Source of the DNA: Desulfobacterales bacterium
Lineage (GTDB): Bacteria; Desulfobacterota; Desulfobacteria; Desulfobacterales; JAHEIW01
Reading direction: 5' to 3'
Assembly (NCBI GenBank): GCA_030066985.1
Contig: JASJAN010000025.1
Location: 62,001 to 126,000 of the forward strand
Length of the DNA stretch: 64,000 nucleotides
This document shows positions 3,541 through 62,648 of the stretch, in pieces. A program made the position numbers and the translations under genes. Within the stretch, counting starts at the first letter, position 1. Each line of letters begins with the position of its first letter. The notes beneath the pieces are model-generated. The model was given only the letters and a program-made list of their open reading frames with translations, was not told the DNA's origin and ran no database searches.

Positions 3541-3575
3541 CAGAGGGCAGATGTCAGAGGACAGAAGACAGAATC
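3541..3575 (+). repeat. Degenerate 7-nt tandem array (CAGAGGA type) entering the gspJ start
   Basis: Five consecutive heptads, CAGAGGG, CAGATGT, CAGAGGA, CAGAAGA and CAGAATC, keep an exact 7-base register. The gspJ ATG at 3551 lies in the second unit, so the first residues of the leader (MSEDRRQNR) are encoded by the array. The same sequence family occurs near 13442, 13501, 13792, 18599 and 19498. Confidence 0.8.
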
Positions 3576-4330
3576 GCGGATCACCCGGGCATCCAATATA
3601 TGCCAGAAGCCGGCCTGCGATAAGACCGGCCAAGTCAAAGCCGGCAACCGGCAGACAGCACCGCGCTGCCGGCTTTACCCTGATGGAAATTTTGATCTCC
3701 ATCGCCATACTGGCCCTTGTTGTGACCACTGCCCTGGCTTCGTTTAATGCTGTTTTTTCAACCACGGATGCGCTCGACGACAGCTCTAAAATTTATGAAA
3801 TGGCCCATACCTGCATGAAACGTTTGGTGCTGGACCTGACATCGATACACATCAGCCAGCGGCCTTTATACAAACCGCCGGAATTTGATCAACCACCGGA
3901 TCCATACCGACTGGTGGCGGCCGCCGAAGAGACCGGTGGCACGGGATTTGCACAAAATTTAAGGTTCACCAGTCGAGCCCACCTGCCCTTTGAAAAAAGT
4001 TCCAGAGATGGAATTGTTGAGATCGTTTATTACGTTCAGGCCAATAAGGACGATCATCTGGAGCTAAAACGTGCGGATAATCCCTATCCGTTTCCCGAAT
4101 TTGAAAAAAAAGGAAGCGATCCGATACTGTGCAAGTACGTCAAATCCTTGTCGTTTAAGTTTTTCGACAAAGATGAAATTGAGTTTGATACCTGGGATTC
4201 GGACGCCGATGAATTTGGTTATGCGACACCGACGGCCATAGCAATCAAACTTGAATTGGCCCACAAGGCCGAAACGCACACTTTTGAGACCATGGTATCC
4301 TTGCCGTTGGTGCGTCAGCGGGCGGAATAA
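3551..4330 (+). CDS. gspJ: Minor pseudopilin GspJ with an unusually long leader
   Basis: GspJ is a core subunit of the pseudopilus tip. Prepilin cleavage is expected at G41|F42 within AGFTLMEI (E46 is Glu5), followed by the helix LISIAILALVVTTALASF and a T2SSJ domain; 259 residues in total. The leader of about 41 residues is long for a prepilin, and its beginning is encoded by a short tandem repeat array. The true start could lie further in, but no alternative ATG precedes the cleavage site in frame, so a GTG/TTG start or this extended leader must be used. AGAGGGCAG upstream could serve as a weak ribosome site. Confidence 0.88.
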   Translation: MSEDRRQNRGSPGHPIYARSRPAIRPAKSKPATGRQHRAAGFTLMEILISIAILALVVTTALASFNAVFSTTDALDDSSKIYEMAHTCMKRLVLDLTSIHISQRPLYKPPEFDQPPDPYRLVAAAEETGGTGFAQNLRFTSRAHLPFEKSSRDGIVEIVYYVQANKDDHLELKRADNPYPFPEFEKKGSDPILCKYVKSLSFKFFDKDEIEFDTWDSDADEFGYATPTAIAIKLELAHKAETHTFETMVSLPLVRQRAE

Positions 4331-7584: not shown

Positions 7585-7619
7585 AATAATTTCTAATGGT
7601 CATAAAATGCCATCAGAAA

Positions 7620-7724
7620 TTATTAGTTATTCGTTATTTGTTATTGGTTAGTTGTTAGAAGGGATTAAATTATTTTTTCTATAATCTATGAGCGAACTAA
7701 ACAATTAACACATAACACTTATTG
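7620..7724. repeat. Facing heptad arrays (TTATTAG and CTAAACA types) in front of gspN
   Basis: Six heptads at 7620-7661 (TTATTAG, TTATTCG, TTATTTG, TTATTGG, TTAGTTG, TTAGAAG) are followed 35 bases later by a reverse-oriented set at 7697-7724 (CTAAACA, ATTAACA, CATAACA, CTTATTG). The two sets are roughly complementary and could pair. The second set ends one base before the gspN start codon, leaving no Shine-Dalgarno sequence there. Confidence 0.75.
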
Positions 7725-8593: not shown

Positions 8594-9478
8594 ATGATAC
8601 TGACGACCAAAAAAATCTTTTTAATGATCAATGTGCTGCTGATTACCGCAGGCCTGTATTTTGGTATCAGCGCCTTTTACACGATCGGTACGGCCTGGCT
8701 CGGGGATCCGGTTGAAAAACCGCTGCCGCGTTCGGTTAAAAAACCCGTCGCTAAGCCCAAAGTGGAAACCAAATCCATGTCGGCATATGGCGCCATTGCG
8801 CAACGAAACCTGTTTAACACCAGTCCGGAATCCGCTGCCCCGGTTAAGGCCATTAATGTCGATGACCTGAAAGAAACCGATCTGAAGCTGAAACTATGGG
8901 GTACCGTAGCCGGCAAAGAGTATGCTGTTATTGAAGATGCCAAGACCAGGGAACAGAGCCTGTATCGTGTTGGCGATAGCATCCAGAATGCTACCGTCAA
9001 GATGATCTTGCGTCAAAAAGTGGTTTTGAGTGTAAATGGGCGTGATGAAATTTTGGGAATGGAAGAACCCGGCACCGCCTCCCGAAGAGGCGGCGGCCCC
9101 AGCCCGCGAGTAGCCAGGCAAGGATCCTCGCCGCCTAAAATGCCCGTTTCATCTTATCCGCGTCAACTGACGTTGAAAAGCGACCAGATTGAAAGCGCCC
9201 TGGAAAATCTGGACCAGCTCATGGAGCAGGCCCGTATCCGGCCCCACATCGAAGAAGGCCAGCCGGCGGGGATATCGATCACCGGGATAAAACCCAATAC
9301 GGTTTTCAGAAAAATGCGTCTGCGCAACGGCGACATCATTACCGGCGTCAATGGGGCTCCCGTTGAATCGGTTGAAGATGCCATGAAAGTTTTTGGTGAC
9401 CTGTCATCGGCGTCGGAAGTGCAGCTGGAAATAAAACGGCGCGGCCGCAAACGGACACTGAACTATAAAATCGAATAA
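8594..9478 (+). CDS. gspC: Type II secretion protein GspC (HR and PDZ domains)
   Basis: GspC connects the inner-membrane platform to the secretin. The 294-residue product has a transmembrane helix at about 9-32, a homology region at about 65-150 (IAQRNLFN..., KLKLWGTVAGKEYAVIED) that contacts GspD, and a C-terminal PDZ domain at about 210-294 (GITGIKPNTVFRKMRLRNGDIITGVNG). The ATG at 8594 is preferred because it lies just after the gspN stop and opens with a short cytoplasmic tail; a longer frame to 8462 would overlap gspN and lacks family-like sequence. Encoding GspC next to GspD after gspN is unlike the common gspC-first order. Confidence 0.92.
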   Translation: MILTTKKIFLMINVLLITAGLYFGISAFYTIGTAWLGDPVEKPLPRSVKKPVAKPKVETKSMSAYGAIAQRNLFNTSPESAAPVKAINVDDLKETDLKLKLWGTVAGKEYAVIEDAKTREQSLYRVGDSIQNATVKMILRQKVVLSVNGRDEILGMEEPGTASRRGGGPSPRVARQGSSPPKMPVSSYPRQLTLKSDQIESALENLDQLMEQARIRPHIEEGQPAGISITGIKPNTVFRKMRLRNGDIITGVNGAPVESVEDAMKVFGDLSSASEVQLEIKRRGRKRTLNYKIE

Positions 9479-11607: not shown

Positions 11608-13368
11608 ATGATTTCACGATTAACCGACATACTCAAAAACAAATTCGGGCTCGATGAAGAAAACCTGGATGAAGCTCAGCGTCTGCGGACCGAATCCGGA
11701 GAACATCTGGGCCAGATTCTCATCGATCAAAAAAATTTATCAGAGGATCAGCTACTGGAAGCGTTGAGCATCCAATACGGGATGCCATTTTGGTCGCGAT
11801 TGCCGTTTGAGAGCACCGATTCGGATTTTACCGACAAGGTCTCGATCCAATTTTTAAAAAAATACCACCTGGTCCCTCTGGAATACACCGAAGCCATCTC
11901 TGCTAAAGATTGCGGTCTTAAGCTTCAGGACGAAACCCAAAAAGAGGATACGCAATTTCAGCCGGGCTGCGTTATTGCCATCAACGACCCGCTCAATTTT
12001 CAACCGTTGGATGACCTTGTTAAAACCATCGGCATATCTGATTATCGTGTGGTTTTATCGACCCGCGATGCAATCGTTTCAGCCATCAACCTACAGTATG
12101 ACTTACGCCGTGACTCTGCTGAACAATTGGTGCAGGATATGGAGGAAAACGGCACCAATATTATCAGCGAAATTGAGGAAACGGCTGATTTGCTTGATGA
12201 CACCAGTGATGCACCGATCATTAAACTGGTCAATCACATTATTTCCCAGTCCATCAAGGCAAGGGCCAGCGATATTCACTTTGAGCCTTACCAGAACAGT
12301 TTTACGGTTCGCTATCGGGTCGATGGTATCCTGTATGATTTGCTGACGCCACCCAAATGGATTCAACCGGCCTTAATCTCGCGAGTTAAGGTCATGGCCA
12401 AAATGAATATTGCCGAAAAACGACTGCCTCAAGACGGGCGCTTTGAAGTCAAAATCGGCGACCAGGACATTGACGTCAGGGTGTCCACCATCCCGACTGC
12501 TTTTGGCGAACGCCTGGTTTTGCGCCTGCTAAACAAATCCGGTTCCCTGCTCGAGTTGGAAGACCTGGGCCTTGAGCCCGGCCGGCTGAAATTGCTCAAA
12601 AAGCTGGTGACATCCCCCAATGGCATCATTCTCAACACCGGCCCCACCGGCAGCGGTAAAACCACAACCCTGTATGCGATTTTATCGTCTATTAACGAGC
12701 CCAACATCAATATCATCACCATCGAAGATCCCATTGAGTATCAGATCAAAGGCATCAGTCAGATACAGGTTAATCCCAAAATCGAGCTGACGTTTGCCCG
12801 GGGTCTCAGATCGATTGTGCGACAGGACCCGGATGTCATCCTGGTCGGGGAGGTCCGGGATAAAGAAACCGCCGAGATCGCAGTCCAATCCGCCCTGACC
12901 GGCCATCTGGTATTTTCAACCCTGCATACCAACGACTCCGCCAGTGCCATTACTCGCCTGGTGGACATGGGAGTTGAGCCCTTTTTAATCTCATCGTCCA
13001 TATTGGCGGTGGTGGCCCAGCGCCTGGTGCGGGTGCTTTGTAAAGACTGTCGCCAGTCCTACGAGCCCAACCCGATTTATTTAAAGAGCATCGGTTTTTC
13101 GCCGGAGCTTTTCAGTGAGCATACGGTCTATAAAGCCGCCGGGTGCGAAAATTGTTTCAGTACTGGCTACCGGGGAAGACTGGGCATATTTGAAATCATG
13201 GTACTAACCGAGCGCTTAAAGAGCCTTATTCTAAAAACCTTTGATTCAAATCGCATCAAAAGTGAGGCCGTGCGGCAAAAAATGAGGACTTTGCGTCAGG
13301 ATGGTATGGCGAAGGTGTTGAAAGGGTTGACCACGGTTGAGGAAGTTCTGCGTGTCACCCAGAAATGA
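11608..13368 (+). CDS. gspE: Type II secretion ATPase GspE
   Basis: The 586-residue cytoplasmic motor of secretion. An N-terminal T2SSE-N/MshEN-like domain (about 1-165) precedes the ATPase. The Walker A motif GPTGSGKTTT is near 345-354, followed by an Asp box (TIEDPIEY), Walker B (DPDVILVGEVRD) and His box (STLHTNDSASA). A zinc-binding tetracysteine motif is present: C478-x2-C481 and C513-x2-C516. No strong ribosome site is seen, and the 148-base gap after gspD lacks a terminator. It is the last gene of the operon. Confidence 0.96.
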   Translation: MISRLTDILKNKFGLDEENLDEAQRLRTESGEHLGQILIDQKNLSEDQLLEALSIQYGMPFWSRLPFESTDSDFTDKVSIQFLKKYHLVPLEYTEAISAKDCGLKLQDETQKEDTQFQPGCVIAINDPLNFQPLDDLVKTIGISDYRVVLSTRDAIVSAINLQYDLRRDSAEQLVQDMEENGTNIISEIEETADLLDDTSDAPIIKLVNHIISQSIKARASDIHFEPYQNSFTVRYRVDGILYDLLTPPKWIQPALISRVKVMAKMNIAEKRLPQDGRFEVKIGDQDIDVRVSTIPTAFGERLVLRLLNKSGSLLELEDLGLEPGRLKLLKKLVTSPNGIILNTGPTGSGKTTTLYAILSSINEPNINIITIEDPIEYQIKGISQIQVNPKIELTFARGLRSIVRQDPDVILVGEVRDKETAEIAVQSALTGHLVFSTLHTNDSASAITRLVDMGVEPFLISSSILAVVAQRLVRVLCKDCRQSYEPNPIYLKSIGFSPELFSEHTVYKAAGCENCFSTGYRGRLGIFEIMVLTERLKSLILKTFDSNRIKSEAVRQKMRTLRQDGMAKVLKGLTTVEEVLRVTQK

Positions 13369-13373
13369 TAAAT

Positions 13374-13528
13374 GGCTTCTGGCTGCTTGTTTCTGGCTGC
13401 TTGCGTTTATTCGGTTTCGGGAACTAGTTAAGGACAGGTTTCAGGTGTCAGGAGACAGAGGGCAGAGGACAGATAATTTGCCTGATCCTCAAATTTTCCG
13501 TCTGTCATTTGTCGTCTGACCTCTACTT
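13374..13528. repeat. Cluster of degenerate 7-nt arrays after gspE
   Basis: Three period-7 runs are packed here: 13374-13408 (GGCTTCT, GGCTGCT, TGTTTCT, GGCTGCT, TGCGTTT), 13442-13476 (CAGGTGT, CAGGAGA, CAGAGGG, CAGAGGA, CAGATAA) and 13501-13528 (TCTGTCA, TTTGTCG, TCTGACC, TCTACTT). The last two are approximate reverse complements and form an inverted pair around a 24-base spacer. The region from gspE to 13819 holds no credible gene. Confidence 0.75.
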
Positions 13529-17192: not shown

Positions 17193-18212
17193 TTACTTTA
17201 ATCCGGCTTCTTTGTAATATTTTTCAGCACCCGCATGCAGCGGTGCGGAAAGGCCTTCCATCATGTTTTGCTTGCTTAAAATAGCATAGGCCGGATGAAG
17301 CTTTTTAAAAGAATCAAAGTTGTCAAAAACCTCTTTGGTAATGGCATATACCACTTTTTCCGGCACTTTAGCAGAAGTAACGAAAGTGGCTTTGACGCCA
17401 AAGGTTTCGACGTCAGCATCGTTCTGGGCTCCGGGATAAACACCGACTGGAATTTTGGCCTTGGCATAATAAGGATTGTCGGCAATTAGCTTGTCGATCC
17501 CCGCACCGGTGACCGGCACAAAACGAACCTTGCGGGCGCCGGCGGTAGCCTCTTTGATGGCGCCACTGGGATGCCCGACGGTGTAAAAGAAGGCATCGAT
17601 ACGACCGTCCTGCAGCAGACCGGGCGCTTCGGCGGCCTTGACGCTTTCTGCGGTGATATCGGTATTGTAATCGATCCCCGCTGCAGTCAGGGCGTCAATG
17701 GAATTCTGGCGTTGGCCTGAGCCGGGGTTGCCGATGTTGACGCGTTTGCCCCTCAGATCCTCAATCGACTCAATGCCGGCATCAACTGCAGCCACAAGGG
17801 TAATGGACTCCGGATGGATACTGAATATCGCCCGCAGATCATCCTGCTTGCCTTTATCTTTCCATTCGGCCAGACCATTGATGGCCTGAAACTGCCTGTC
17901 AGACTGGACGACACCGAATTCCAGGTCGCCGGCCATAACGGCATTGACATTAAACACCGAACCGCCGGTGGATTCCACTGTTGCACGGATGCCATATTCG
18001 TCTTTCTTTTTATTGACGATTTTGGCAATAGCACCGCCGGTGGGATAGTAAACACCGGTGATTCCGCCGGTCCCGATAGTGACAAAAGTTGTCTTTGCCG
18101 GCGCCTCGGCAGCGGCTTTTTCTTCAGTTTTGGCCTTTTCTTCGGGTGCACAGCCCATAACAAGGGCAAAACCAAAGATGACGGCTAAACTCAAAATAAG
18201 CACTTTTTTCAT
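17193..18212 (-). CDS. TAXI-family TRAP solute-binding lipoprotein
   Basis: The extracytoplasmic receptor of the TRAP system, 339 residues. A lipoprotein signal ends at LVMGC (C21), followed by a charged Glu/Lys/Ala linker and the TAXI domain (FVTIGTGGITGVYYPTGGAIAKIVN, RVNIGNPGSGQRQNSIDALTAAG). The start at 18212 is supported by a perfect AAGGAGGT seven bases upstream on the minus strand; a longer frame to 18341 adds a meaningless tail. Lipid anchoring fits a receptor held at a membrane. Ligands known for TAXI proteins include glutamate and other carboxylates; the ligand here is unknown. Confidence 0.95.
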   Translation of the reverse strand: MKKVLILSLAVIFGFALVMGCAPEEKAKTEEKAAAEAPAKTTFVTIGTGGITGVYYPTGGAIAKIVNKKKDEYGIRATVESTGGSVFNVNAVMAGDLEFGVVQSDRQFQAINGLAEWKDKGKQDDLRAIFSIHPESITLVAAVDAGIESIEDLRGKRVNIGNPGSGQRQNSIDALTAAGIDYNTDITAESVKAAEAPGLLQDGRIDAFFYTVGHPSGAIKEATAGARKVRFVPVTGAGIDKLIADNPYYAKAKIPVGVYPGAQNDADVETFGVKATFVTSAKVPEKVVYAITKEVFDNFDSFKKLHPAYAILSKQNMMEGLSAPLHAGAEKYYKEAGLK

Positions 18213-18596
18213 TTGAACCTCCTTATGGTTAACCGTTAAGGTTGATGATGAAAACTTGCTCGACGACATGCGAGTACGCGCTTTATGCTTAGCTAGCTCA
18301 TAACATAAGCGGCTTGAAAATGATTTCAATGGGGATGTCACGTCGAAGACCTAACAAATCCAAATTATGAATGCAAGAAGTTTGTAACAAATTGATATTC
18401 AATGGGTTAATGAAACGACACGATGTGCCAACATGAAAGTTGCGCGTTTTACAACATCTCAATCGAAATAATCATAAATTTTTTATAGTTACGAGCCATT
18501 GTTTTTCGTTCCAAGGCATTTTTCTGATACATTGCCAACCCTCCTGGAAGGAAACAACAGCAGCCAAATCAGGAAATGCTGCCTGCCTTTTTTCTA
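18213..18596. other. Promoter-bearing spacer upstream of the TRAP operon
   Basis: A 384-base gap between the divergently placed start of the receptor gene and the end of the glycosyltransferase gene; no gene is visible. It contains the AAGGAGGT ribosome site and 5' leader of the TAXI receptor gene. No sigma70-like promoter of good quality was recognised by eye. Confidence 0.5.
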
Positions 18597-46058: not shown

Positions 46059-47768
46059 ATGAACACAAAAACCAGCGGGACACCGGAAACTCTGCACGCC
46101 ATGTTTCAAACAGGCGGGCGCAGTGTGAGCTGGTGGCAGATAGCGGCCAATCTGATCGGCGCCATCATCGTCACGTCTTATTTTGTTTTTTTTGACCGCG
46201 TGTTTGCAGCCATGCGGGTTCAAAATACGTTTGTCGTCGTGGGCATCATGTTCCCGGTCCTGGCTGTCATTGCCTTCTTCTTTTTCAATTTCTGGATGAA
46301 AGATTTAGAGCGTTTTTTACAGTTAACTGCCCAGAACAAACAAATTGAGCCCCATCTGAGAAAAAAGGCCCAGCGCAAAATCCTTGAAATGCCGTTTTTT
46401 TCAGCACTGGTAAGTTTTTTTAACTGGTTTCTGGCGGCCATCACCATGACAATCTTCAGTATCATAGCTGATTCCAGCAACACCGCACCATTAATGGTTG
46501 ATCTGATTGATGGGCTGAGGGTTTTTATCGGCTGCATTATCGGCGGTATCATCACCGCCGCGATTATATTTTTCATCACCGAAACCAAATGCCGCCAGAT
46601 CTGGCCCTATTTTTTTCCTGCAGGAGGGCTGGCCAGCACACCCGGCGTATTTCGTCTGAGACTGCGTGCCCGCATGCTGATTATCTTTGTACTGGCCAGC
46701 ATATTGCCGCTGATCCTGATGGCGGTTTTATCGTACAATAAAGCCAGCATGATGCTGGAGATGGACCCGGGCCAGGTCATTCAGAGCCTGCTGTACCTAA
46801 CGGCCTTTTTGCTGGCCGTCACCCTGGCTGTGGCCGTCATCCTGTCACGCTCGTTTTCAACCGGCATCATTGATCCGATCAGACAGATGCAAGCCGCCAT
46901 GGCGAAGGTTGAAAAAGGCGATCTGTCGGCAAACGTAACGGTTAACAGCAACGATGAACTGGGCGCACTGGGAGAAAACTTCAATCAGATGACCGAAGGC
47001 CTAAAAGATCGCTATCGTCTGCGCCAGTCGTTGGATCTGGCCAAGGAAGTGCAGCAAAACCTGCTGCCTGCAGCAGATCCGCTTTTCCCCGGTTTGGATA
47101 TCGCCGGCAGAAGCATCTATTGCGATGAGACCGGCGGCGATTATTTTGATTTTTTTGACAGCGCCGACAAAAACGCTCAAAAATACGGCGTGGTCATCGG
47201 CGATGTATCCGATCACGGCATCCCATCTGCCCTTCTGATGGCCTCGGCCCGCGCATTTTTACGGCAGCGCACGACGCTGGCCGGCAACATTGCCGACATC
47301 GTCGGTGACGTCAATCGCCAGTTAACCCAGGACGTGGAAGACACCGGACGTTTCATCACCCTGTTTTATCTTCAAATCGATACGGACAACCGCCGGTTGA
47401 GCTGGGTGCGGGCCGGACACGAGCCGGCATTGCTGTTCGATCCCGCCAGCGGTCGCTTTGACGAGCTGAGCGGTGAAGGTATCGCTCTTGGCGTTGACGC
47501 CGATTGGCGATTTTCAGAGAATCAGCGAGAAAATTTAACCGACGGGCAGATTATTTTATTGAGCACCGACGGGATCTGGGAGGCCCGCGATCCCCAGGAT
47601 CAGATGTTTGGCCGGCAGGCCGTTTGCGATATCATCCGTCAGCATGCGCATGCCACCTCCGCCCAGATTCAGGATGCCATTCTGGCCGAATTAGATCGTT
47701 TTCAGCAGGGCGTCACAGCCGCTGACGACACCACCCTGGTGGTCATAAAAGTTGCCGGCAACAGTTGA
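46059..47768 (+). CDS. Membrane-bound RsbU-type PP2C phosphatase with HAMP domain
   Basis: A 569-residue signalling protein. The N-terminal half contains about six hydrophobic helices (about 25-47, 57-75, 110-130, 145-170, 205-225, 245-265), then a HAMP domain (about 267-320), a linker and a SpoIIE/RsbU phosphatase domain (about 345-569) with GGDYFDFFDS, VIGDVSDHGIPSALLMASARAF, VRAGHEPALLF and LLSTDGIWEARD, which retain the metal-binding Asp residues. Such enzymes dephosphorylate anti-sigma antagonists; no antagonist or anti-sigma gene is adjacent. The ATG is preceded by ACAGGTGACGGC. Confidence 0.92.
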   Translation: MNTKTSGTPETLHAMFQTGGRSVSWWQIAANLIGAIIVTSYFVFFDRVFAAMRVQNTFVVVGIMFPVLAVIAFFFFNFWMKDLERFLQLTAQNKQIEPHLRKKAQRKILEMPFFSALVSFFNWFLAAITMTIFSIIADSSNTAPLMVDLIDGLRVFIGCIIGGIITAAIIFFITETKCRQIWPYFFPAGGLASTPGVFRLRLRARMLIIFVLASILPLILMAVLSYNKASMMLEMDPGQVIQSLLYLTAFLLAVTLAVAVILSRSFSTGIIDPIRQMQAAMAKVEKGDLSANVTVNSNDELGALGENFNQMTEGLKDRYRLRQSLDLAKEVQQNLLPAADPLFPGLDIAGRSIYCDETGGDYFDFFDSADKNAQKYGVVIGDVSDHGIPSALLMASARAFLRQRTTLAGNIADIVGDVNRQLTQDVEDTGRFITLFYLQIDTDNRRLSWVRAGHEPALLFDPASGRFDELSGEGIALGVDADWRFSENQRENLTDGQIILLSTDGIWEARDPQDQMFGRQAVCDIIRQHAHATSAQIQDAILAELDRFQQGVTAADDTTLVVIKVAGNS

Positions 47769-47781
47769 GTTGAAACCGCTC

Positions 47782-47839
47782 CGAGGACGAGGACGAGTAA
47801 AATAAGCTATTTAGGATTTCGTCCTCGTGCTCGTCCTCG
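47782..47839 (+). repeat. 6-nt inverted arrays (GAGGAC/GTCCTC) after the phosphatase gene
   Basis: CGAGGACGAGGACGAG (47782-47797) faces CGTCCTCGTGCTCGTCCTCG (47820-47839). The hexamer GAGGAC and its complement repeat on both sides, so the transcript can form a stem of up to about 16 bp with a 22-base loop, 14 bases after the stop codon. No T-run follows; it may protect the 3' end. Confidence 0.7.
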
Positions 47840-47870
47840 TAATCGTAATCGAAAACTCAACCCACCAAAC

Positions 47871-48031
47871 TCGCAACTCGTAACCCGAAACTCGAAACTC
47901 GAAACTTAAAATTTGAAACGCGTAACACGTAACCCGCAATTGGATACTTGATACTTGATACTTGATACTTGAAATTTAAAAGACGCTACCCGCAGCCCGA
48001 AAATCGTAAATCAAAACACAAAATACTAAAA
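47871..48031 (+). repeat. 23-unit degenerate heptad array upstream of osmC
   Basis: From 47871 the sequence divides without a single indel into 23 heptads: TCGCAAC, TCGTAAC, CCGAAAC, TCGAAAC, TCGAAAC, TTAAAAT, TTGAAAC, GCGTAAC, ACGTAAC, CCGCAAT, TGGATAC, TTGATAC three times, TTGAAAT and so on to ACTAAAA. The base content drifts but the period does not. GATACTT occurs four times in a row at 47943-47970. The array stops exactly at the osmC ribosome site (GCAGGAGAA). Confidence 0.9.
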
Positions 48032-48046
48032 GCAGGAGAAACAACA

Positions 48047-48463
48047 ATGGCAACAGCAACAGTTCGTTGGTTAAATGACAGAAACTTTGTGGGGGTGGAT
48101 TCAACCGGCCATTCGGTGGTATTGTCCGGCCAAAAAAACGGGATCGGGGTCAGTCCCTCCCAGATGCTGCTGGTGGCCCTGGCGGCCTGTTCATCGGTGG
48201 ATGTGGTTGAAATCTTAGAAAAAAAACGCAAAAAGCTCACGCTGCTCGAAGTCACCGCCAATGGCGAACAGGACCCGGATCCCCCCTGGACCTATCGCAG
48301 AATTCATGTCACCTACCGGCTCGGCGGTAAGGATCTGACCGCTAAAGCCGTTGAGCAGGCCATTCAGCTCTCGGAGGAAAAATACTGTTCAGTGGCCGCC
48401 ACCGTGCGCGGTGTGGCCAAAATCACCACCGAATATGAAATTGTTAGCGAAGAACCTGCCTGA
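48047..48463 (+). CDS. OsmC/Ohr family protein
   Basis: A 138-residue OsmC-fold protein. Conserved elements are PSQMLLVALAACSSVDVVEILEKKR with the first reactive Cys and EEKYCSVAATVRG with the second. Such proteins reduce organic hydroperoxides with thiols, although the YhfA-like OsmC branch to which this one is most similar has no proven substrate. The start at 48047 is set by GCAGGAGAA seven bases upstream; a frame open to 47969 is made of repeat array. Confidence 0.93.
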   Translation: MATATVRWLNDRNFVGVDSTGHSVVLSGQKNGIGVSPSQMLLVALAACSSVDVVEILEKKRKKLTLLEVTANGEQDPDPPWTYRRIHVTYRLGGKDLTAKAVEQAIQLSEEKYCSVAATVRGVAKITTEYEIVSEEPA

Positions 48464-48660
48464 CCTCTCCATTGTATATCGGTTTTATCCGCATAGACAC
48501 ATTGGACGTTAAAAGCCGCCGCAGTGAGCGGCATTTCTTTCGGTCGGTTGACCATAGAGTCTAACCGTCTAAAATCTAAAATAAATATTGACACTTAACC
48601 GCTTAACCAATAAAATTTTAGGTGATCGAATCCCATTAAACTTCACCAAGGAGCATTCGC

Positions 48661-49209
48661 ATGCTGGATTTGGATCCGCAATTAGGCAAATATAGCATCA
48701 CCGCCCGCTTATTTAAACTGGTCAATGACATGCCGAGGGATAAAAAATTAATTCTGTTAAAGCAGCTCATCGGTGACGATGTCACCTCCCAGCTGTGCAA
48801 ACTGATCGTGGAAATGTCTGAAGATCAGCAAATCATTTTGCTCGAGCAACTAGAAGCCATGCCAACGATGGAGATGCCTGAAACAACGGTCAGTTTGGAA
48901 GGAAATGAATCTTCGATGCGGGAAAACCCCCGCAAGCCGTGCTTGATAAACGCCAAATACCGTATTCAAAATAAAGATTACAAAAGCTATATCCTGGATA
49001 TCAGTGTCGGCGGGGTGTTTATAGAAACGGCGGAAACATTTACTATCGGTCAAAAAATCGGTCTGAATTTTATGCTGCCCAATATCACCAAGCCGTTTAA
49101 ACTGATCGGAACGATATCATGGGGAAGCCCCCGCGGATTCGGTGTAAAATTTGATAGTGTGCCCGCGCCCCAAGGAGAGATTTTAAAATCATATATCGAG
49201 CAGGATTAA
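48661..49209 (+). CDS. PilZ-domain protein
   Basis: A 182-residue cytoplasmic protein. The N-terminal 80 residues are helical (LVNDMPRDKKLILLKQLIGDD). The C-terminal PilZ domain (about 85-182) shows the cyclic-di-GMP-binding signatures: an RxxxR motif in MRENPRKPC and DISVGGVF (the D/N-x-S-x-x-G motif). Binding to c-di-GMP is thus likely. A GGDEF protein encoded at 57-58.5 kb could be one source of the signal. CAAGGAG lies upstream of the ATG. Confidence 0.9.
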   Translation: MLDLDPQLGKYSITARLFKLVNDMPRDKKLILLKQLIGDDVTSQLCKLIVEMSEDQQIILLEQLEAMPTMEMPETTVSLEGNESSMRENPRKPCLINAKYRIQNKDYKSYILDISVGGVFIETAETFTIGQKIGLNFMLPNITKPFKLIGTISWGSPRGFGVKFDSVPAPQGEILKSYIEQD

Positions 49210-59352: not shown

Positions 59353-59392
59353 AGAGGCGGATCTTCGACCTCGACAATCGCTCAATAGAGGA

Positions 59393-59432
59393 GATAGTTA
59401 AATAGTTAAGCAGTTAAATGGTAAAATTAAAA
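59393..59432. repeat. 8-nt array (AATAGTTA type) upstream of the PH-domain gene
   Basis: GATAGTTA, AATAGTTA, AGCAGTTA, AATGGTAA and AATTAAAA in register. The reverse-oriented partner array lies at 61493-61548 near the integrase gene, so the pair flanks a 2.1 kb block of three genes. The rest of the 500-base gap between 59156 and 59655 shows no gene. Confidence 0.7.
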
Positions 59433-59655
59433 ATAGGCTGTTGAATGATTTGGTAACCGAAAAATTCATAAATTGGTTCGCTCACAATCTTGCTCGACGT
59501 ATCGAAACACTGACCTTCAGCCCGACTTGCCCTGCGGATTCTTGACCAAAAAATTCAACCCGGCGTTCATATAATCGCATGTCTGCAACTTGATGTTTCG
59601 CAGCACATAAAAAAGAGCAGCGCGCCGACGCGTTGGCAGGAGAAAGGATCATTAA

Positions 59656-61492: not shown

Positions 61493-61548
61493 AACTATAT
61501 AACTATTCTACTATTTAACTACTAAACTATTTAACAAATCAACTAAAC
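61493..61548. repeat. 8-nt array forming the 3' end of the integrase gene
   Basis: AACTATAT, AACTATTC, TACTATTT, AACTACTA, AACTATTT, AACAAATC and AACTAAAC, seven exact 8-base units. The last unit contains the integrase stop codon (complement of CTA at 61543-61545). Inverted relative to the array at 59393. Confidence 0.75.
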
Positions 61549-62508
61549 ATCCAGTGGGCTTTTCACGGCCATAGCGCCCTTTTGCATCACATGGGTGTAG
61601 ATCATGGTGGTGCTGACATCCTTATGCCCGAGCAGTTCCTGGACGGTGCGGATATCGTAGCCGTCTTCAAGCAAATGGGTGGCAAAGCTGTGGCGAAAGG
61701 CATGGCTGGTGACCGCTTTGGGGATGCGGGTCAGGCGAACGGCTTTTTTGAGCGCCCTTTGAAAGGAGCTGGCGTGGATGTGCGGCCGGCGCTTGATTCC
61801 CGTGCGCGGATCTTTTGAAATGCTCTTGGATGGAAAGACATATTGCCAGATCCACTGGCAGCTGGCATTTTTGAATTTTCTTTCCAGGGCATGGGGCATA
61901 AACACTTTGCCGTAGCCCTGTGCCAGGTCATCGTCGTGCAATAGTTGAACACGGTCTAAATGCTGCTGCAGATCTTCTTTGACAACCTCGGGCAGCAGCG
62001 TAATGCGGTCCTTGTCTTCTTTTCCCTGGCGCACCACAATTTGATTCATCTCAAAATCAATGTCTTTGACCCGCAACCGAATGCATTCCATCAACTGCAT
62101 TCCGGCACCGTAAAGCAGCATGCCGATGATCTTCTGAGTGCCCGACATAGTATGGATTAACTTTGAAACCTCCGCTTTTGTTAACACCACCGGCAGCCGT
62201 TGCGGCTTTTTGGCGCGGATGGCATTGATCGGCTCTTTGAGTTCGATGCCCAGGATTTCGCGGTAAAGAAAAATGATGGCGTTGAGGGCCTGGTTCTGGG
62301 TGGATTGGGCGACTTTTCTTTCAACAGCCAGGTGGGTCAGAAATGCTTCGATCTCAGCAACACCCATATCTTTGGGATGCTTTTTATTGTGAAACAGGAT
62401 GAACCGTTTGATCCAGGAAGTGTAGCTGCGCTCGGTGCGGATGGAATAGTGCTTGAGCCGGATCCGGTCACGGACCTGGTCCAGCAGTTTTTTAGGCGGC
62501 TTAACCAT
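61543..62508 (-). CDS. intI: Integron integrase (tyrosine recombinase) IntI
   Basis: A 321-residue tyrosine recombinase of integrase length. The N-terminal SAM-like domain is about 1-95 ([31 protein letters not shown]). Catalytic residues appear in the box I Arg region ([13 protein letters not shown]), box [29 protein letters not shown] and the Tyr in TTMIYTHV. The extra segment between boxes, [19 protein letters not shown], is characteristic of IntI. The start at 62508 (MVKPPKKLL) is chosen because the frame upstream to 62637 is not integrase-like and overlaps the promoter region. The last codons run into the 8-nt array. No obvious frameshift. Confidence 0.95.
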
Positions 62509-62565
62509 TTTAAATAAATTTGAAAAATCAACGGTTTTGGGTGTAAAATATATATATAAGCCCTT

Positions 62566-62594
62566 TTGAGAAAGCAAGAATTTATCAATATAAT
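62566..62594 (+). promoter_or_regulatory. Candidate cassette promoter Pc
   Basis: TTGAGA (62566-62571) is followed after exactly 17 bases by TATAAT (62589-62594), pointing at the cassettes. The -10 box is 74 bases before the first cassette start. Integrons commonly have an outward promoter here. Confidence 0.7.
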
Positions 62595-62595
62595 C

Positions 62596-62635
62596 GCATT
62601 TTTGCAGCGTTACCCCGATATCCACGCAAAAATGC
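62596..62635. repeat. Perfect 10-bp inverted repeat between Pc and attI
   Basis: GCATTTTTGC (62596-62605) and GCAAAAATGC (62626-62635) are perfect reverse complements with a 20-base spacer. It follows the -10 box of Pc directly, so it lies in the leader of the cassette mRNA and may form a hairpin or act as a protein-binding site. Confidence 0.7.
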
Positions 62636-62648
62636 AACTCACTGACTA

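Follow-up and report, generated by a model that had tools for sequence, protein, structure and literature searches.

Directly upstream of osmC in a Desulfobacterales genome lies a degenerate tandem array of about 25 heptads, which is probably an expanded, drifting and stray gene-less member of a class of arrays that form the ends of S23/IVP elements. S23/IVP, the '23S rRNA intervening sequence protein' (PF05635), is a four-helix bundle, and its genes sit between inverted degenerate arrays whose period is nearly always 7. The osmC array was found in a stretch of 64,000 nucleotides, which is called the window below.

In the osmC leader, an indel-free 7-nt phase can be read from 47858 to 48032 on the forward strand (consensus CGAAACT), slightly more than the 23 heptads in unbroken register that a sequence-only reading had described at 47871-48031. 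Within the latter interval, lag-7 identity is 0.695; dinucleotide shuffles give 0.284 +/- 0.036 (z 11.3), and none of 2000 is as high as the observed value. The lags 14, 21 and 28 are raised too (0.57, 0.55 and 0.53), and every lag that is not a multiple of 7 is near chance or lower. The units, such as CGAAACT, TGATACT, CGTAACC and CGCAACT, belong to the word family YGNAACY. The array ends at the osmC ribosome site, as had been noticed before: the Shine-Dalgarno sequence GGAG (48035-48038) follows at once, and the ATG of osmC lies at 48047. The gene (48047-48463, forward strand) encodes an OsmC-like protein (PF02566) and has its ribosome-binding site at the array end; a HAMP-SpoIIE phosphatase gene upstream of it (46059-47768, forward strand) is syntenic with osmC in the congeners G001 and G002.

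The unit drifts along the array, since a unit resembles its neighbour more than it does a unit picked at random (identity 0.68 compared to 0.55, with a mean of units of 0.55; p 0.0002), which bears out the gradual change first described. Substitutions in the arrays of this genome are spread evenly over the seven phases (p 0.6). Both p-values, like the one given below for IVP-flanking arrays, serve as guides, because lag-7 detection itself favours neighbour similarity and the units are non-independent. Even phases are what neutral relics would give, and the constraint on spacing that had been suggested finds no support in this array. The array is unpaired, as no inverted partner array was found for it. 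A tblastn search with 104 IVPs returned no IVP-like sequence anywhere in the 64-kb window, the osmC locus included, and positions 47000-49000 gave no Rfam match to a known RNA family. Period 7 and intergenic position are shared with simple heptanucleotide repeats, but the units are not near-identical. Neighbour likeness and even phases also agree with a plain slippage microsatellite, in which a chance heptad was amplified and then point-mutated without relation to any element; heptads were the most frequent simple repeats with long units in most of the genomes that Mrazek (2007) surveyed, as quoted in PMC4679880. Such an origin appears unlikely, though by no means negligible, in the light of the wider array class.

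This class was charted in 627 kb of the genome, part of which was chosen for holding pattern matches; degenerate tandem arrays were scored there by log-odds on their lag matches. The scan revealed 61 period-7 arrays (shuffled sequence: 0), and 55 of them are intergenic, although intergenic DNA makes up 16% of the sequence. Period 8 is represented by 18 arrays (shuffled: 2), and periods 5, 11 and 13 by one or none. Density in the unselected part of the genome is about 5 arrays per 100 kb. The same class is present in the congeners, and the lag-7 autocorrelation of pooled intergenic DNA, to which the sequence-only reading had pointed, forms a peak with z 14.5 in this genome and 8.9 in the congeners. 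Among 95 intergenic period-7/8 arrays of this genome and its congeners, 52% are accompanied, at most 150 nt away, by an array of the reverse-complement unit, compared to 2% with shuffled units and 3% in direct orientation. Many of the paired arrays fold into long, very stable hairpins with heptad arms, and unit sequences vary widely within one genome. The microsatellite explanation accounts neither for the dominance of periods 7 and 8 and the near-absence of 5, 11 and 13 nor for the inverted partners of half of the arrays.

Gene-less hairpins in many intergenic regions also recall REP/REPIN-like elements spread by a Y1 (RAYT) transposase. This is very improbable here: the hairpins consist of tandem heptads instead of one short conserved palindrome, and the RAYT link was discarded because the flanks of all three Y1_Tnp genes of the genome are free of arrays. 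The arrays show no strong preference for a gene-orientation class, and a role as terminators was likewise rejected for want of enrichment between convergent genes in this genome (convergent 17%, tandem 16%).

A link to S23/IVP genes is seen in this genome itself, where the inverted pair at C6:149277 and C6:149695 encloses a PF05635 gene. Four of its six IVP genes lie between clear inverted arrays, one lies between weaker ones and one does not. Under a strict rule 3 of the 6 pass; the fourth gene (L092) has matching arrays, but an extra hairpin blurs their orientation. IVP genes occur in 45 of 58 relatives, with up to 23 per genome, and inverted arrays were seen at about 22 of 25 inspected IVP loci of the order, each locus with a different unit. 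A cross-phylum sample of 80 loci, covering named genomes in at least 15 phyla, was drawn from a narrow IVP alignment and hence leans to one IVP subfamily. In this sample, matching inverted arrays flank 58 of 76 testable IVP genes; the count is 2 of 501 for ordinary genes of the present genome and 1 of 14 for neighbour genes in the same loci. Genes were taken from simple ORF calls, and the genomes are mostly MAGs. The density of period-7 arrays falls from 60 per 10 kb at less than 100 nt from an IVP gene to 18 between 100 and 200 nt and 0.7 between 200 and 300 nt, and other periods stay at about 0-2 per 10 kb. A microsatellite again leaves unexplained why period-7 arrays crowd so close to IVP genes (less than 100 nt) in many phyla. 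Among the flanking arrays, 7 is the best-fitting period for 84 of 93 on the left and for 91 of 98 on the right, and an array usually comprises 4-7 units. Heptad arrays around S23 genes are unreported in the open-access journal papers searched.

The surroundings of single IVP genes offer some further variation. In three Bacteroidota loci (L139, L173 and L178), the genes are accompanied by very long arrays, often of over 15-20 units, which run in one orientation on either side of the gene; at L178 an inverted block is present as well. Elsewhere, IVP elements part genes that usually work together, namely an Fe-S assembly gene and sufB in a Riemerella plasmid record (L236) and two ribonucleotide reductase subunit genes in a Nostoc edaphicum plasmid (L237).

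The IVP unit moves, because 98%-identical copies occupy unrelated loci of one genome. The identity of these two copies (G021) extends across about 500 bp and takes in the arrays, of which the left ones differ in length by exactly two units. Two 88%-identical copies in another genome (G028) have left-array units of 7 and 8 nt, and a copy in a third (G041) shares 85% identity with one found in a different family of the order. The IVP gene between carB and purF is intact in the present genome (G000). G001 has an internal deletion in it, G002 has lost nearly all of it, and G003 has a decayed copy into which a hexad hairpin has been inserted; array units remain in all four. Arrays of this kind bound mobile IVP units, outlast the decay of the gene and change length in whole units. 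No nuclease or transposase is evident in the IVP element. At the purF start (L126, L127, L128 and L129), the propeptide reading frame contains the right array of this element, whose position is kept in four congeners.

Units that differ between elements have a weak common motif in mirror orientation. Rotation-aligned left arrays yield A(0.78) G(0.86) [TG] [GA] G, right arrays independently yield the reverse complement of AG[TG][GA]G, and both arms exceed a column-permuted null. When left flanks are paired with right flanks of other loci, 22% still match because the units have this motif in common. Phase conservation in IVP-flanking arrays is uneven (p 8e-8), in contrast to the arrays of this genome. 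The proposal that a protein measures the period, made for the osmC array, is not supported there; for the class flanking S23/IVP genes it gains suggestive support from the prevalence of period 7, the common motif and the uneven phases.

Probably, the class is made up of short degenerate tandem arrays that lie as mirror images at the two ends of small mobile elements of about 0.45-0.6 kb, each with a single S23/IVP gene (PF05635). The 7-nt period would be set by IVP recognition of the element ends, perhaps by an IVP ring with one heptad per subunit. The latter is possible because each entry of the two solved IVP relatives, 2GSC and 2RLD, contains five chains and because these proteins, together with the related Avd protein, are presumably pentamers. 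Against a strict ruler stand the 7-to-8 shift between close copies and the near lack of correlation between protein and unit similarity, which is weak overall (Mantel p 0.04) and absent among pairs below 50% identity; protein-unit co-evolution was rejected on this account. A far broader proposal would make IVPs the recognition factors of bacteria-wide minimal mobile elements, with a pentameric ring that binds single-stranded arrays at one degenerate heptad per subunit, or about 35 nt, and so measures the 7-nt period; it would turn cyanobacterial STRRs, Geobacter pairs and most drifting heptad arrays into ends or relics of such elements. We regard it as possible but rather doubtful.

The inverted arms might instead act as an RNA stem, as in the RNase III-cut intervening sequence (IVS) of 23S rRNA, with the heptad order as a by-product. 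The stable folding of paired arrays would suit this idea, as would the Coxiella IVS, whose 28-bp terminal stem is cut by RNase III (PMC4990558). However, the arms have a common unit but seldom a locked register, with p<0.05 reached at 10 of 68 loci, on which ground a model of hairpin stems alone was dismissed. The near-universal period 7 and the motif would also go unexplained, and the osmC array is unpaired; a stem function is hardly probable at all.

The case for placing the osmC array among the element ends is built on shared words and on synteny. CGAAACT and TGAAATT are common to the array and the carB-purF IVP element of this genome, whose CGATACT differs by one base from TGATACT in the array; a microsatellite would not explain these shared words. 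The osmC leaders of G001 and G002, which have the same neighbour genes, contain about 4-5 decayed heptads that score higher for the family than 99% of intergenic tiles do. The array has the unit words of an S23/IVP element and lacks both the PF05635 gene and inverted arrays on both sides. The origin of any single stray array, that of osmC included, can be inferred from shared words and synteny, because gene-less arrays are not demonstrably tied to resident IVPs. Across the whole genome, their units are not significantly nearer to resident than to foreign IVP arrays (0.557 compared to 0.531 +/- 0.033), tblastn with 104 IVPs found no IVP remnants between gene-less arms, and two IVP-rich genomes hold few gene-less arrays.

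Once stranded at osmC, an element-end array would grow and shrink by whole-unit slippage and drift by point mutation. The sequence-only reading had held that slippage cannot give drifting units, a view not borne out by the two-unit difference between the 98%-identical copies of a related element, by the 25 heptads here compared to about 4-5 family-like ones in the orthologous leaders, and by the likeness of neighbours, which fits whole-unit duplication and point mutation. Whole-unit length changes and short remnants in the congeners count in favour of a microsatellite as well. A third possibility is a regulatory array of protein-binding sites that would act on osmC or genome-wide. It could draw on the position abutting the osmC ribosome site, the intergenic location of the arrays and a heptad register that suits a multimeric protein. 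Yet length and sequence upstream of osmC are unconserved in G001 and G002, the phases mutate evenly, units differ widely within one genome and no gene-orientation class is strongly preferred, and we consider a regulatory function quite improbable.

Several known repeats resemble these arrays. Cyanobacterial STRR repeats are intergenic 7-nt tandem repeats of near-identical units; the osmC array has their period and location, but its units drift. IVP genes on Nostoc, Calothrix and Trichormus plasmids are flanked by heptad arrays (AGTAGGG/TCCCTAC). The paired repeats of Geobacter metallireducens comprise 3-5 tandem degenerate 7-9-mers, mostly in opposite-strand pairs at variable distance, like the arrays described here, and the class 3 consensus MTYCTGA matches arrays of this genome and Trichormus IVP flanks (CTCCTGA, ATTCTGA). 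They were proposed as sites of an IHF/HU-like global regulator and described without a link to S23/IVP; the osmC array is longer and unpaired. The TAACTGA repeats of Beggiatoaceae, for which a translational regulator was proposed, are intergenic heptamers often found just upstream of start codons, like the osmC array (PMC4679880). They have one fixed unit in 2-6 direct copies, with longer arrays in some Bacteroidetes and Cyanobacteria, and no IVP link was reported (PMC4679880), whereas the osmC units are CGAAACT/TGATACT and kin. In the 23S rRNA IVS of Leptospira and Coxiella, long suspected to be mobile, an S23 ORF of the same protein family lies between inverted terminal sequences (PMC4990558). 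Unlike the IVS, the elements described here lie between ordinary protein genes and end in degenerate heptad arrays. Both the osmC leader and carB-purF are protein-gene contexts and not rRNA insertions, and the osmC array in addition has no S23 gene.

To our knowledge, S23/IVP genes, annotated as 'four helix bundle protein', are spread over many phyla without a known function, and bacterial heptanucleotide repeats have been described piecemeal with no owner assigned. By a rule that joins the two, the arrays become candidate ligands of the protein, which in turn offers them a candidate origin. The rule also carries a warning, as many small ORFs called within such arrays are not genes. IVP genes within operons, including cas loci (PMC3936711), may be insertions and not parts of the system.

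Other arrays surround the osmC locus. Just upstream, and absent from the earlier reading, is a different repeat, an inverted hexad-array pair (47782-47862) with CGAGGA at 47782-47799 and TCGTCC/TCGTAA at 47819-47862, which is a gene-less element of the hairpin type; its family is also inserted within the decayed IVP gene of G003. At a score of at least 12, the window contains five period-7 arrays, compared to 0.2 in shuffles. The array scan located a CAGAGGA-family heptad array at 3541-3584, with an array of the same family but different units at the orthologous place in G001, and a GTTATTN array at 7612-7721 whose right half is partly inverted. One intergenic region (13361-13473) holds two heptad arrays, TGGCTTC at 13361-13404 and CAGGTGT to CAGAGGA at 13435-13473.

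Elsewhere, a 19-kb run of this genome (L028 1-19411; G000:C28:25000-44410) has genes mostly in one direction, many of them parted by heptad or octad arrays and hairpins of several families at unusual density. Two inverted 9-mer hairpins in L078, at 9200-9280 (CACGAAGGN/CTTCGTGNN) and 18150-18441 (GCAGAGACGCAGAGG/CTCTGCGTCTCTGCGG), look like further, period-9 families of the same architecture. Near the end of the window, an octad array of AACTATTT (61493-61553, forward strand) overlaps the 3' end of a gene for an integron-integrase-like tyrosine recombinase (61543-62637, reverse strand), so named from its C-terminal sequence, and a matching inverted octad array of AAATAGTT (59392-59433, reverse strand) lies 2 kb upstream.
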